Source of the DNA: Syntrophales bacterium
Lineage (GTDB): Bacteria > Desulfobacterota > Syntrophia > Syntrophales > UBA4778
Direction of reading: 5' to 3'
Length of the DNA: 48,957 bases
Assembly (NCBI GenBank): GCA_028712885.1
Contig: JAQTPK010000019.1
Coordinates: 1 to 48,957, forward strand
The notes below the pieces were generated by a model. The model was not told the DNA's origin, did not search any database, and saw only the letters and a list, made by a program, of their open reading frames with translations. The position numbers and the translations under genes were made by a program. Shown in pieces: positions 23,042 to 29,186 of the stretch (position 1 is the first letter of the stretch; each line of letters opens with the position of its first letter).

Positions 23042-23256
23042 GGTTCTCCGGCCGGGACGGAAGCACCCCGCCGGCCCCGGTTCCGGATAGTCCTTGTCCG
23101 CTGCCGATTCAGATTTCGTTTCCCCTTCCCTGAAGATGCCGTAAATGGTTTTCAGCACTAAATATCTTTGTTTTTCCTGCCGATATAACAGTGGGCAACT
23201 CCCGCAGCGTTCACGGACCGGCGGGCATCATCTTATTTCCTGAAAAACTGCGCCGC

Positions 23257-24396
23257 ATGAATTCTTCCATCGAAAATGCAACCAGGTATTCTCTCCGGTC
23301 TGAAGAGTCCGGACCGGGAAACCTGATTCTGCATGTTTCGGGCGCAATCGCCCTCGGGACCGTGAAGGATTTCACCCGGGACATTGAATCGCACCTGCGC
23401 GGAAGGAACTTCCGGGAGGTGATCTTCGATCTTGACGGGATCGAATATCTCGACAGCGCGGGTGCGCTTGCCCTGATCAGGTACCGAGACATGGGTTCCC
23501 GCGAATCTTTCCCGGTCCGCATGACCGGCATGAACGCGGCCACGGAACGCATGATAGGCCTCATCGACCGCAATCCTCTCCCGCCGCCGCAGCCGTCAAG
23601 AGAAGCGCCCGGTCTGCTGGAAAGAGCCGGAGAGGCCGGGATTCGCTTCTATCATGATGCAGCCCTGCTGCTGCTCTTTATCGGCGATATTGCCGGCTCC
23701 CTGGCCGGATCCGCATTGAGCCCGCGGTCCATCCGGTGGGAATCCGTTACCTTTTACATGAAGAAAGCGGGGCTTGACGGATTGCCGATCGTCGGACTTA
23801 TCAGCGTTCTCCTGGGGATGATTATGGCCTTCATGGCGTCCCTCCAGCTCCGCCTTTTCGGCGCAAACATCTATGTCGCGTCTCTGGTGTCCATTGCCAT
23901 TGTCAAAGAGCTCGGCCCCATTATGACGGCTATAATTTTCGCCGGACGGTCCGGCTCGGCCTTCTCCGCCGAAATCGGGACAATGCTGGTGAATGAGGAG
24001 ATAGACGCCCTTTCAACCATGGGTTTCGATCCCGTCAGATTCCTTGTCGTTCCGAAAGTCATCGCCTCGATGCTTGTTGTGCCGATTCTCACGCTCTATG
24101 CCGATTTACTCGGAATATTGGGAGGCCTGGTCGTGGGTATAATGGGAATGGACTTGACGGTCCACTCGTACATGCAGCAGACGATGACCAGCATCCAGAT
24201 GTTCGACCTTGTTTCAAGTATTTTCAAGTCGGTATGCTTCGCCGTGCTGATTGCGGCAATATCGTGCCACCGCGGATTCCAGGCCAGCGGGGGAGCGGAA
24301 GCCGTCGGCTCCGCGACAACTTCCGCCGTAGTATCTTCTATTTTCCTCATCATCACCGCCGATTCGGCTTTTGCGATCATGCTGCACTACATATGA
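23257..24396 (+). CDS. mlaE: MlaE-type lipid ABC permease with N-terminal STAS (MlaB-like) domain
   Basis: Inner-membrane permease of an MCE/Mla phospholipid transport system, 379 aa from this start. Residues about 10-110 form a STAS domain (IEYLDSAGALALI), equivalent to MlaB fused to the permease. The MlaE domain follows with about five membrane segments and the conserved block KELGPIMTAIIFAGRSGSAFSAEIGTM, then the EEIDAL coupling motif. A GTG at 23191 would add 22 residues; neither start has a good ribosome site. ATPase, MCE-domain and lipoprotein genes follow in order. A TAAA-N16-GCCGATAT sequence at 23159-23186 resembles a sigma28 promoter, but its spacer is one base too long. Confidence 0.9.
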   Translation: MNSSIENATRYSLRSEESGPGNLILHVSGAIALGTVKDFTRDIESHLRGRNFREVIFDLDGIEYLDSAGALALIRYRDMGSRESFPVRMTGMNAATERMIGLIDRNPLPPPQPSREAPGLLERAGEAGIRFYHDAALLLLFIGDIAGSLAGSALSPRSIRWESVTFYMKKAGLDGLPIVGLISVLLGMIMAFMASLQLRLFGANIYVASLVSIAIVKELGPIMTAIIFAGRSGSAFSAEIGTMLVNEEIDALSTMGFDPVRFLVVPKVIASMLVVPILTLYADLLGILGGLVVGIMGMDLTVHSYMQQTMTSIQMFDLVSSIFKSVCFAVLIAAISCHRGFQASGGAEAVGSATTSAVVSSIFLIITADSAFAIMLHYI

Positions 24397-24420
24397 AGAA
24401 GGGGAAGACGGTCGCGACTG

Positions 24421-25194
24421 ATGAATACTCCTGCTGACAAGAAATACAGACCGGCTGTCATCGAAGTGGAGGGGATCTCAGCCTATTACCGCGACAACTC
24501 CGTCCTGGAAAATATCTCGCTCAAGGTGTTCCAGGGAGAAATTTTCGTAATCGTCGGGGAGAGCGGCTGCGGGAAATCGACCCTGCTCAAGTGCATGATA
24601 GGGCTGTATCGTCCCGACGACGGCAGGATCTCGATCCGGGGGACCGATCTTGTTTCCGCCGAAGATGAGGAGCTCCAGCAGGTCAGAAAAGGATTCGGCG
24701 TGCTCTTTCAATCGGGCGCCCTTATCGGCTCCATGACGCTTGCGGAGAATATCTCTTTGCCCCTCCTCGAGCATACCGACCTGCCGGCGGAAATGATCGA
24801 CGAAATCGTCAGGATGAAGCTTCGCCTCGTGAATCTTTCCGGCTACGAGGACTACCTTCCGTCCGAGCTTTCGGGGGGAATGAAAAAAAGGGCCGGCATC
24901 GCCCGCGCCCTGGCGCTCGACCCGCAGATCCTTTTTCTGGATGAGCTGTCGGCGGGCCTGGATCCCGTTACGTCCGCAGGGCTGGACCGGCTCGTCAAGG
25001 ATCTGAACGCTGTTATGGGCACCACGATGGTGATCGTCAGCCACGAGTTAAATTCGATTATGAATATTGCCGATAGGGTGATCATGCTGGACAAGAGCAC
25101 CCGGGGAATAATCGCCGAGGGAAATCCGCGGGAAATCAGGAAGAATTCCGCGGATCGGAGGGTATACAACTTCTTCAACAGGGAACCGCACTGA
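24421..25194 (+). CDS. mlaF: MlaF-type ABC ATPase
   Basis: ATPase driving the Mla-type lipid transporter, 257 aa. Walker A GESGCGKST, signature LSGGMKKRAG, Walker B ILFLDELSAGLD and the switch histidine in IVSHELNS are present. The MKKRAGIARA form of the signature is characteristic of MlaF/Mkl ATPases. It begins 24 bases after the permease gene and ends 12 bases before the MCE gene, so it is in the middle of an operon. Confidence 0.92.
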   Translation: MNTPADKKYRPAVIEVEGISAYYRDNSVLENISLKVFQGEIFVIVGESGCGKSTLLKCMIGLYRPDDGRISIRGTDLVSAEDEELQQVRKGFGVLFQSGALIGSMTLAENISLPLLEHTDLPAEMIDEIVRMKLRLVNLSGYEDYLPSELSGGMKKRAGIARALALDPQILFLDELSAGLDPVTSAGLDRLVKDLNAVMGTTMVIVSHELNSIMNIADRVIMLDKSTRGIIAEGNPREIRKNSADRRVYNFFNREPH

Positions 25195-25206
25195 GGATGG
25201 AGAAAA

Positions 25207-26082
25207 TTGGCTAAAAAGAAAACTTCCAGGATCCTGATCGGGCTGTTTGTCGTCATCGGCTCCGCAATCGGCGTAATCGCGGTGGTATGGCTCGGAGCTT
25301 CCAAGTATTTCGAGAGCGGCGCCCCGTACGCGGCATACTTCGATGAATCGGTGCAGGGATTGAGTCCCGATTCGAGCGTGAAGCTCAGGGGCGTAAGTAT
25401 CGGCAGGGTGGAGACGATCGGAGTCGTCCCCGGAAGCGCCTTTGTTGAAGTCATCATGAAGCTGAATATGAAAGATCTGCCGGCAGATCGCCTCTGCGCC
25501 GAGCTGAAATCCGCAGGACTGACCGGGATCATGTTCATCGATCTCGATCTGATACAGAAAGGGGAAGCGGTGGACTCGTCTCCTCCGGGCTGGGATCCCC
25601 CACATCCCGTAATCCGGTCCCGGCCGTCGCGGACAAAGCATATCCTGACGGGCATAGACACGCTGATAGAAAAAGTGAATCAGATCCATACCGGCGCGAT
25701 CACAAAAAATCTGGAATCGGCTACGGCCCGCCTCGATATAGTCCTGCGCAGGACCGACCGGATTCTTGCAGACGAGAGGATAGAGCAGATCCTGACCGGC
25801 ACCAGGGATACTATCGCCGAGGCAAGGACGGCATTGAACAGCGTCAAATCCGAGATCCAGGGGATGAGGCTGAAAGAGACGTCGGGGCAGGCCCATAACA
25901 TTCTCGAAAGCCTGGGGAAAGACTCCCGCAAAATATCAACGGATTTGAAGATAACCGGCGAGAACCTCCGCCAAGTGTCGGAAAATCTCGAAACGCTGGT
26001 GCAGAGGCTGCAGACTGATCCATCAGAAATTCTCTTCAGCAGCCGGCCTCCCCCCCGGCAACGACAGGAGTACAAGCCATGA
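25207..26082 (+). CDS. mlaD: MlaD-type MCE-domain protein
   Basis: Periplasmic lipid-binding component anchored to the inner membrane, 291 aa. An N-terminal membrane segment (about residues 8-30) is followed by one MCE domain (about 38-120; SVQGLSPDSSVKLRGVSIGRVE is typical), then a helical C-terminal region (about 150-280) that could build a tube or bridge toward the outer membrane. The start is TTG with GGAG upstream. The last codons overlap the lipoprotein gene start (ATGA). It has a single MCE domain, as in MlaD, rather than the multiple domains of PqiB. Confidence 0.9.
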   Translation: MAKKKTSRILIGLFVVIGSAIGVIAVVWLGASKYFESGAPYAAYFDESVQGLSPDSSVKLRGVSIGRVETIGVVPGSAFVEVIMKLNMKDLPADRLCAELKSAGLTGIMFIDLDLIQKGEAVDSSPPGWDPPHPVIRSRPSRTKHILTGIDTLIEKVNQIHTGAITKNLESATARLDIVLRRTDRILADERIEQILTGTRDTIAEARTALNSVKSEIQGMRLKETSGQAHNILESLGKDSRKISTDLKITGENLRQVSENLETLVQRLQTDPSEILFSSRPPPRQRQEYKP

Positions 26083-26726
26083 AAAGGACCGTAATTCTTT
26101 TGTGGTCGGCGCTTCTCATCCTGAACGGCTGCGCCGGCGCCAAATTTCCGCCGGAGGTCAATCAATACACGCTCGAATACGCGTCTCCCGCATTCGGGGA
26201 TATGAAGCCTGTGGACGCCTCCATTCGCCTTGAGCCCTTTTCCATTGTCCGCGCATATAGTACGACCTCTATGGTTTACAGGACAAAACCTTTCCGGTAC
26301 GGCGACGACGCCTACAACCGCTGGCGGGTGAAACCTTCGGATATGCTGTCCGACCTGCTGCTGCGGGACATGAGAAACGCCGGTCTCTTCCGGGGGGTTT
26401 TTTCCTATAACGACGCAGATAACGGCTGTTACAACCTCGGTGGGGTCATTGAGGAAATATACGAACGGGAGAGCAAAGACTGCAATCAGGCGGTTCTGGG
26501 CGTGAATGTCACGCTTGTCGGCAGCAGTCAGGAAGCGCCGGGACAGATATTATTCCAGAAAGGATACCGTTCCGTTCAGGATATGGAAAGGAGAGACGCC
26601 GAATCGCTGGCCCGCGCCATGAGCAGGGCCATGGAAGCGGTATCCAGAGAAATCATCCTGGACGCGTACAATGCGGCGAAAAAAAACAAGCCGCGATCAA
26701 AGAAAGAGTGCCTGACGTCCCAGTAA
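26079..26726 (+). CDS. ABC-type transport auxiliary lipoprotein (PqiC-like)
   Basis: Predicted outer-membrane lipoprotein, 215 aa, of the ABC_trans_aux family (Pfam PF03886) that accompanies MCE systems. The signal peptide ends in the lipobox LNGC, giving a lipidated Cys at about residue 18. The remaining region resembles PqiC/YmbA proteins (SIRLEPFSIVRAYSTTSMVYR). It overlaps the MCE gene by four bases and is the last gene of the operon. It probably docks the MCE tube at the outer membrane; no MlaC or MlaA gene is seen here. Confidence 0.85.
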   Translation: MKRTVILLWSALLILNGCAGAKFPPEVNQYTLEYASPAFGDMKPVDASIRLEPFSIVRAYSTTSMVYRTKPFRYGDDAYNRWRVKPSDMLSDLLLRDMRNAGLFRGVFSYNDADNGCYNLGGVIEEIYERESKDCNQAVLGVNVTLVGSSQEAPGQILFQKGYRSVQDMERRDAESLARAMSRAMEAVSREIILDAYNAAKKNKPRSKKECLTSQ

Positions 26727-27895: not shown

Positions 27896-28342
27896 ATGTT
27901 CACAAAAGAATTCTTTATCAGCAGACTGAGGGATAAAGGGCTGAAGGTCACAAGCCAGCGGCTTGCCATAATAGACGTGATGCTCGAAAAAGGACATCTG
28001 CATCCCGGCGCCGCGCTCGTATTCGAAGAGGCCAGGAAGCGGGTAAGGGGACTGAGTTTGTCCACGGTGTATGCAACTCTTCACGAATTTTACCGCCGCG
28101 GCATTTTCAAGATGATCGAGTTCGACCGGATGGAGAACCGCTTCGACAGAAATATCGATGAGCACCTGCACCTTATCTGCCGGAAGTGCGGAAAAATCAT
28201 CGATTACCCTTCTCCCGGAACACTCCGCCGCGCCGAGTTGGAAAAGAACGCAGGATTCCGCATCACCGACAGCCGGCTTGAGTATTACGGCTATTGCCGG
28301 GAGTGCGGCGAGAGGCCTGAACCGGCAAAGGGCCTGAAGTGA
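27896..28342 (+). CDS. Fur-family metalloregulator, PerR-like
   Basis: DNA-binding metal or peroxide sensor, 148 aa. A winged helix (KGLKVTSQRLAIIDVML, STVYATLHEF) is followed by a dimerisation domain with HLHLICRKCGK. Two CXXC pairs (CRKC and CREC) would hold the structural zinc. The adjacent peroxiredoxin and shared upstream palindrome favour a PerR (peroxide) role over iron or zinc sensing. There is no ribosome site before the ATG at 27896, and the leader is only about 25 bases. Confidence 0.9.
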   Translation: MFTKEFFISRLRDKGLKVTSQRLAIIDVMLEKGHLHPGAALVFEEARKRVRGLSLSTVYATLHEFYRRGIFKMIEFDRMENRFDRNIDEHLHLICRKCGKIIDYPSPGTLRRAELEKNAGFRITDSRLEYYGYCRECGERPEPAKGLK

Positions 28343-28387: not shown

Positions 28388-28463
28388 AGTTTAGTATGAC
28401 GTCTGTTCCAGATAACTCCCGCCTGCAAGGCCGGGAGAATAAAATCAGAAAGGAGAAAAGCAG

Positions 28464-29186
28464 ATGGCGGAAGAGATAAAAGCCGGATGTGCAAGGCCGA
28501 CGGGAGGTCCCGTGGGCGAAACGGAAACCGAAGAGAAAAAAACCGCACAACAGGGTGTGCAGAAAGAGAGCAGATCCATGATCATGGTCGCAAGAAAGGC
28601 CCCCGATTTTTCCGCGCCCGCATATTTCGAAGGCAAATTCATTAATGTCCGCCTGTCCGAATACCTCGGTAAGTGGGTGCTCCTGTGCTTCTATCCGGGC
28701 GACTTCACCTTCGTCTGAGCTACGGAAATTTCGGCAGTTGCCGAAGCTTATCCTGAATTTCAGAAGCTCGGGGTCCAGGTCCTGTCCATGAGCATCGACA
28801 GCGTCTTCGTACATAAGATGTGGGTCGACCACGAACTTTCCAAGATGGTGAAAGGCGGAATACCTTTTCCCATGCTCTCGGACGCCGCCGGCAGGGTGGG
28901 AACCGCTTACAACGTTTTCGACGATATGGCGGGCGTCGAGACAAGGGGACGTTTTATCATAGACCCTGACGGAGTTATTCAAGGCTACGAAGTTCTGACT
29001 CCGCCCGTGGGAAGAAATGTTCTCGAATCGATACGGCAGGTGCAGGCTTTCCAGCATGTGCGACAGAGCGGCGGGACCGAGGCTACACCCTCGGGATGGC
29101 GCCCCGGAAAGCTCACGCTGAAACCCGGACCGGGCCTTGTCGGAAAGGTCTGGACAGTGTGGAAGACAAGCATGGCCCTCGACTGA
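28464..29186 (+). CDS. Selenocysteine peroxiredoxin (in-frame UGA at the peroxidatic site)
   Basis: Thiol-type peroxidase of the AhpC/Prx1 family, 240 aa, when the TGA at 28716-28718 is read as selenocysteine (residue 85). The frame is continuous across it, and the context GDFTFV-U-ATEI is the peroxidatic motif of typical peroxiredoxins with Sec replacing Cys. A hairpin starting 12 bases after the UGA supplies a bacterial SECIS-like signal. No cysteine follows residue 85: the usual C-terminal resolving-cysteine region reads EATPSGW. This looks like a 1-Sec enzyme unless C9 or C75 resolves it or another thiol protein does. An N-terminal tail of about 38 residues (AGCARPTGG) is added before the domain. 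The start at 28464 has AAAGGAG upstream. The gene follows the PerR-like regulator. Confidence 0.88.
28730..28745 (+). promoter_or_regulatory. Bacterial SECIS-like hairpin
   Basis: TTCGGC and GCCGAA form a six-pair stem with loop AGTT, beginning 12 bases after the UGA; the loop is 18 bases after it. A guanine within the first two loop positions and this distance fit the bacterial SECIS model recognised by SelB. The stem lies inside the coding region, as it must in bacteria. Confidence 0.65.

Follow-up and report, generated by a model that had tools for sequence, protein, structure and literature searches.

The selenocysteine (Sec) peroxiredoxin PrxU encoded in the window, by which we mean the whole 48,957-nt stretch of DNA analyzed here, probably recycles its peroxidatic Sec85 through Cys9, a cysteine on an N-terminal tail that would stand in for the missing C-terminal resolving cysteine. 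In most relatives, a second translation start nested inside the same gene predicts an additional form of the enzyme that lacks this tail. We place the probability of this mechanism as a whole, including PrxU-type chemistry, resolution by Cys9 and dual starts in relatives, at roughly 0.6.

With UGA read as Sec, the prxU frame (28464-29186, + strand) encodes 240 aa, and its sole internal TGA is codon 85. The full-length start at 28464 is preceded, at a distance of 8 nt, by the Shine-Dalgarno sequence AAGGAG (28450-28455, + strand; anti-Shine-Dalgarno duplex energy -8.0). The original prediction held that the TGA at 28716 interrupts a peroxiredoxin frame at the catalytic cysteine, and this is borne out: the protein matches Pfam AhpC-TSA (4.9e-37) as well as Redoxin, and scores 407.8 bits against the NCBIfam equivalog model for PrxU, NF040737 (curated cut-off 270 bits), with the TGA falling exactly at the TxxC/U position of both the AhpC-TSA and PrxU matches. 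PrxU and AhpC models score highest for this protein, and the PDB matches listed are all of the Prx1/AhpC type, the best by sequence being 4fh8 (2.6e-48), with PrxA (5zte), Prx2 and AhpC among the fold matches. A Prx1/AhpC fold is likewise predicted for its peroxiredoxin domain by fold search and by an AF2 structure model, whose alignment comprised 29 rows without the Peptoclostridium acidaminophilum (P. acidaminophilum) and Chloroflexota sequences.

In translation, the protein contains only two cysteines, Cys9 and Cys75, and none after Sec85. The canonical C-terminal resolving position, within EATPSGW, is occupied by Thr208 (29085-29087, + strand). Both the lack of a downstream cysteine and the EATPSGW sequence had been noted correctly from the start, yet they are typical of PrxU rather than peculiar to this copy; the second cysteine before Sec, the invariant Cys75 within LCFYPGDF, had been overlooked. 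By its model score, this is an unremarkable member of an already named family, PrxU (NF040737), so that a "1-Sec peroxiredoxin" as such is no novelty. What goes beyond the descriptions we found is the tail Cys9 as a putative substitute resolving thiol, and the predicted nested internal start.

Insertion of Sec at residue 85 (28716-28718, + strand) can be regarded as close to certain, because selA, selB, a Sec-type selD and tRNA-Sec all occur in the organism's own genome (2.93 Mb, 99% complete). SelA, SelB and SelD score 590, 371 and 380 bits, and the tRNA-Sec carries the anticodon TCA; a search for selA, selB, selC and selD, proposed together with the original prediction, thus found the whole set. 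These genes lie on four separate contigs (L004, L012, L020, L021), and selD has an in-frame TGA and probably encodes a selenoprotein itself. Downstream of the UGA, a predicted bacterial SECIS hairpin (28730-28745, + strand) with the apical loop AGUU at 28736-28739 lies at a distance of 17 nt (MFE z -2.57), in agreement with the stem-loop (loop AGTT, at SECIS distance) initially proposed. Across 41 diverged sequences, its helix is 97.6% paired and shows 69 double-changed cells against 24.9 expected from shuffles, scored on seven pairs including the innermost A-U/G-C pair; slid controls collapse. Most relatives carry AGUU or GGUC in the loop at the same 17-nt spacing. An Rfam scan gave no SECIS match and a single chance match to a miRNA.

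The identification of this protein as a Sec peroxiredoxin, supported by the complete machinery and the covarying hairpin, is further supported by recurrence of the same TGA in relatives. It occupies the peroxidatic codon in 80/80 database loci translated, from records labelled as many phyla. Among 100 relatives, PrxU matches listed above cut-off come from 40 genomes and all have a TGA inside the frame, as does nearly every above-cut-off match when 395 genomes of the phylum are included. SelA was found in 93 of the 100 relatives; two of the 40 PrxU genomes (G065 and G078, assemblies 88% and 77% complete) are among those where it was not. Homologues with Cys at the Sec position also exist (L173, L176). 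An ATG-started 132-aa ORF follows the TGA, as might be expected were this codon a genuine stop in a broken or split gene. Purifying selection on both sides of the TGA, its presence in many labelled phyla, the SECIS covariation and the full Sec machinery argue against such a stop, to which we give next to no chance. A restart after the TGA was also rejected; none is seen at this site.

The N-terminal tail consists of an 11-residue motif (28485-28517, + strand) containing Cys9 (28488-28490), the candidate resolving cysteine, followed by a variable linker that is predicted to be disordered (28518-28577, + strand). The tail cysteine is invariant in 110/110 distinct relatives, as the alignment of N-terminal tails suggested at the outset now reveals. 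Within the motif (GCARPTGG), we counted 0.627 synonymous versus 0.067 nonsynonymous differences per codon pair, a tighter constraint than in a stretch of the catalytic domain (nonsynonymous 0.185). The linker varies in sequence and is nearly fixed in length, with 74-80 residues separating the tail Cys from Sec in 111 relatives. Together with a strong Shine-Dalgarno sequence at M1 in 92% of relatives (anti-Shine-Dalgarno energy -8 or lower), the motif constraint counts in favor of the tail being translated. AF2 assigns the tail no position, with pLDDT below 50 for residues 1-39.

Several other roles for the tail were considered and rejected. A lipobox at Cys9 would require a hydrophobic stretch before it, which is absent. 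Nor does the tail seem to be a tag that further proteins in this genome also carry, as the motif is no commoner elsewhere than chance (26 occurrences versus 27 in the control). An EncB-like ferritin gene, of an encapsulin-cargo family, lies just upstream of prxU in L064, L065, L067, L074 and L085 and suggested an encapsulin cargo tag; none of the 100 relatives searched has an encapsulin, and the tail is therefore no cargo tag.

We compared the tail with the C-terminal resolving cysteine in ~170 relatives, comprising close relatives and additional order- and phylum-level loci that were chosen deliberately among weak, stop-free, tail-less and full-length matches. Tails were scored by their Cys motif, and no Cys-less tail was seen. 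The C-terminal resolving cysteine is missing in 139 of 141 tail-bearing proteins (exceptions L048 and L193), while tail-bearing L215 has a cysteine three residues past the canonical position. All 29 tail-less relatives have a second cysteine, in the contexts EVCPAGW-type (15), KAC/KVC (7), TPCGW (5) and CVU (2). In a quick maximum-likelihood tree of 58 rows, some of whose forks are weak, the tail state changes three times, such that the exclusion rests on few independent gains or losses. One of these cases is instructive: the Sec lineage L181 branches next to PrxU of P. acidaminophilum, inside the tail-bearing clade (support 93), yet is tail-less, carries AEACPAGW and starts directly after its own Shine-Dalgarno sequence behind another gene. 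L213, from the same family, is likewise tail-less with AEACPAGW. Conversely, L173, which has Cys in place of Sec, retains the cysteine of the tail and has none at the C-terminal resolving site, so that Sec itself does not account for the exclusion.

Because the tail and the C-terminal resolving cysteine are nearly mutually exclusive, we infer that Cys9 is probably the substitute resolving thiol, which is the simplest reading of this pattern. The original suggestion that a Cys-bearing N-terminal tail implies a different recycling route thereby gains indirect support, from the invariance of the cysteine and the near-perfect exclusion. Its "1-Sec" label, however, probably does not fit the full-length form, which would be a two-residue Sec/Cys enzyme, and would suit a tail-less isoform alone. 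By the criteria for 1-Cys (Prx6) enzymes, the protein has no Cys downstream of Sec but does have the invariant Cys9 and Cys75, and its best match is not of the Prx6 type.

Other arrangements of cysteines occur in this group. L141 and L142 are tail-less Sec peroxiredoxins with TCVU, a Cys two residues before Sec, and have no other candidate resolving cysteine besides that of strand beta3; they possibly recycle differently. In the tail-less Sec or Cys peroxiredoxins L184-L187, L174, L175 and L177, a C-terminal KAC/KVC pair replaces the usual resolving cysteine. L136 and L149, Cys peroxiredoxins, combine a C-terminal resolving Cys with a Cys-bearing N-terminal tail (MACD, MPCD) and perhaps represent an intermediate state.

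Two further roles for the cysteines of PrxU bear on this assignment. Cys75 (28686-28688, + strand), ten residues before Sec, could itself be the resolving thiol, and is invariant in 80/80 database homologues. It is also found, however, in 2-Cys relatives of both Sec and Cys type that keep the C-terminal cysteine (L149, L182, L183, L192), is replaced by Tyr in tail-bearing L197, and sits in the core strand beta3; we rejected a special resolving role for it as highly improbable. Alternatively, Cys9 could form tail-to-tail disulfides that fix or link oligomers. Human PRDX4 has an N-terminal extension whose Cys51 plays such an oligomer-linking role, and it retains its C-terminal resolving cysteine. 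The fold search matched PRDX4, for which C51A mutants are deposited, but a C245A mutant of its C-terminal resolving cysteine is listed as well, whereas in PrxU this residue is lost where the tail is gained. We consider a purely oligomer-linking tail very unlikely.

The gene also appears to contain a second start in most relatives. An ATG 46 codons before Sec is present in 104/107 relatives, within the variable linker, preceded at 8 nt by AAGGAGG or a close variant; tail-less relatives start at this same place with the same signal. An internal Shine-Dalgarno sequence of at least 6 matching nt occurs in 102 of 110 relatives versus 33 expected (maximum 43) from 200 synonymous shuffles using each gene's own codon usage. 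Anti-Shine-Dalgarno energies of -8 or lower are found at 95% of internal sites, 92% of M1 sites and 8% of controls, with medians of -12.1 for the 110 internal sites and -3.55 for controls. Wobble entropy falls to 0.41 and 0.34 bits at the internal AAG GAG codons, with neighbors mostly at 1.3-1.9. Selection at the nucleotide level for this start is thus strongly indicated in ~95% of relatives and predicts a second, tail-less isoform. Since signals at both M1 and the internal ATG are conserved, both starts appear to be maintained, and we regard dual isoforms in most relatives as quite probable.

This claim concerns the family and not the window copy, in which the internal Shine-Dalgarno sequence is lost. 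The corresponding site (28563-28580, + strand; M39 at 28578-28580) has the degenerate sequence AAAGAGAGC in place of the signal, and AAAGAGAGC-AGATCC-ATG is the weakest of the 110 internal sites at -4.1 kcal/mol. Mainly the full-length form is therefore expected here, and dual isoforms in the window's organism are unlikely.

Taken together, we propose that SelB would decode UGA 85 as Sec at the SECIS hairpin, both machinery and signal being present, and that Sec85 would attack peroxide to give a selenenic acid. Such a step is established peroxiredoxin chemistry. Because Thr occupies the C-terminal resolving position, resolution would fall to Cys9, carried on the disordered 38-residue tail of either the same subunit or a neighboring one; it would swing in and form an Se-S bond that may then be passed to thioredoxin or a related reductase. 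In most relatives, the internal Shine-Dalgarno sequence and ATG, located where AhpC ancestrally started, would additionally yield the tail-less isoform without the Cys9 thiol, and oligomers would presumably mix resolving and non-resolving subunits. A more tentative extension, on which we would not yet bet at even odds, is that the resolving cysteine was added on a tail upstream of the ancestral AhpC start while the old ribosome-binding site survived within the extended gene. One mRNA would then provide long, resolving and short, non-resolving subunits, whose ratio in mixed oligomers might set the speed of recycling or peroxide signaling, with the window's organism having switched to long subunits alone.

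The surroundings of prxU fit peroxide control: a PerR/Fur-type regulator gene lies directly upstream (27896-28342, + strand; NCBIfam PerR 89 bits, below the equivalog cut-off), and PerR-like genes are near prxU in ~8/80 other loci, making regulation by a PerR-like protein likely. Further upstream of this pair, the window contains MlaE/MlaF/MlaD-like lipid transport genes and an auxiliary lipoprotein gene (23191-26726); downstream of prxU come a Csp-like gene, typA and a ychF-like gene. Elsewhere, a gene for a CoA-disulfide-reductase-like flavoprotein, which is not near the window copy, lies close to prxU in ~20/80 loci, mostly upstream (in L085, 2100 to 399 bases before it). The one such protein read has a rhodanese-like C-terminus. 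This flavoprotein is a candidate redox partner of PrxU.

Such a partner would also suit a true 1-Sec peroxiredoxin, in which thioredoxin or a low-molecular thiol reduces the selenenic acid directly and the tail serves as a peptide for docking or targeting to a partner. Thiols and selenenic acids react with each other readily (PMC8533274), and the short isoform expected in most relatives would carry no resolving thiol; were such isoforms abundant, the thiol we propose would be missing from many subunits. Direct reduction does not, however, predict the mutual exclusion of tail and C-terminal resolving cysteine, and a targeting role sits poorly with a tail motif at chance level elsewhere and with the absence of encapsulin noted above. 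We therefore judge a true 1-Sec mechanism rather unlikely and favor resolution by Cys9.

Sec peroxiredoxins are known, and the exclusion pattern offers a directly testable answer to how one without the usual resolving cysteine is recycled. Nature supplies variants for such tests: the long-only window copy, the tail-lost L181 and L213 with a C-terminal resolving Cys, and L173 with Cys for Sec. A further prediction of the nested start is that the tail cysteine is missing from any protein purified, or any gene annotated, in the short form, and enzymology of that form could therefore misjudge the mechanism.

Sec peroxiredoxins with a TxxU site, from the same lineages as the window or related ones, are listed for Syntrophus, Syntrophobacter and Desulfococcus in passages of PMC1794560, PMC5109826 and PMC13188914, and these passages make no mention of a tail, a resolving cysteine or internal starts. 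Our literature searches found nothing useful on an N-terminal resolving cysteine, on PrxU or on the 22-kDa protein, and, in the library searched, no report of an internal in-frame start in a peroxiredoxin. Bacterial genes with internal in-frame starts that produce N-truncated isoforms are nevertheless comparable, as the PrxU family shares with them a nested Shine-Dalgarno sequence and in-frame ATG. With typical 2-Cys Prx1/AhpC enzymes, the window PrxU has the fold, sequence and TxxC/U site in common, but it differs in its peroxidatic Sec, the Thr in place of the C-terminal resolving cysteine and the Cys-bearing tail. Human PRDX4 (3tkp) shares the Prx1 fold and, unlike PrxU, keeps that cysteine and is not a selenoprotein. 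The closest known system is prxU of P. acidaminophilum (Eubacterium acidaminophilum) DSM 3953, the type case of PrxU, from the species in which the Sec peroxiredoxin was described; given this gene and the published lists, the enzyme type is already known. It is 64.2% identical over residues 1-240 (tblastn) and shares the tail Cys (GCARP), the Sec (its Sec84) and the missing C-terminal Cys. Its internal Shine-Dalgarno sequence and ATG are not among the weak sites, whereas the window copy has lost this signal. The PrxU protein was reportedly described by Soehling et al. in 2001 as 203 aa long with Sec47, a size and position that would agree with initiation at the internal ATG of the P. acidaminophilum gene.
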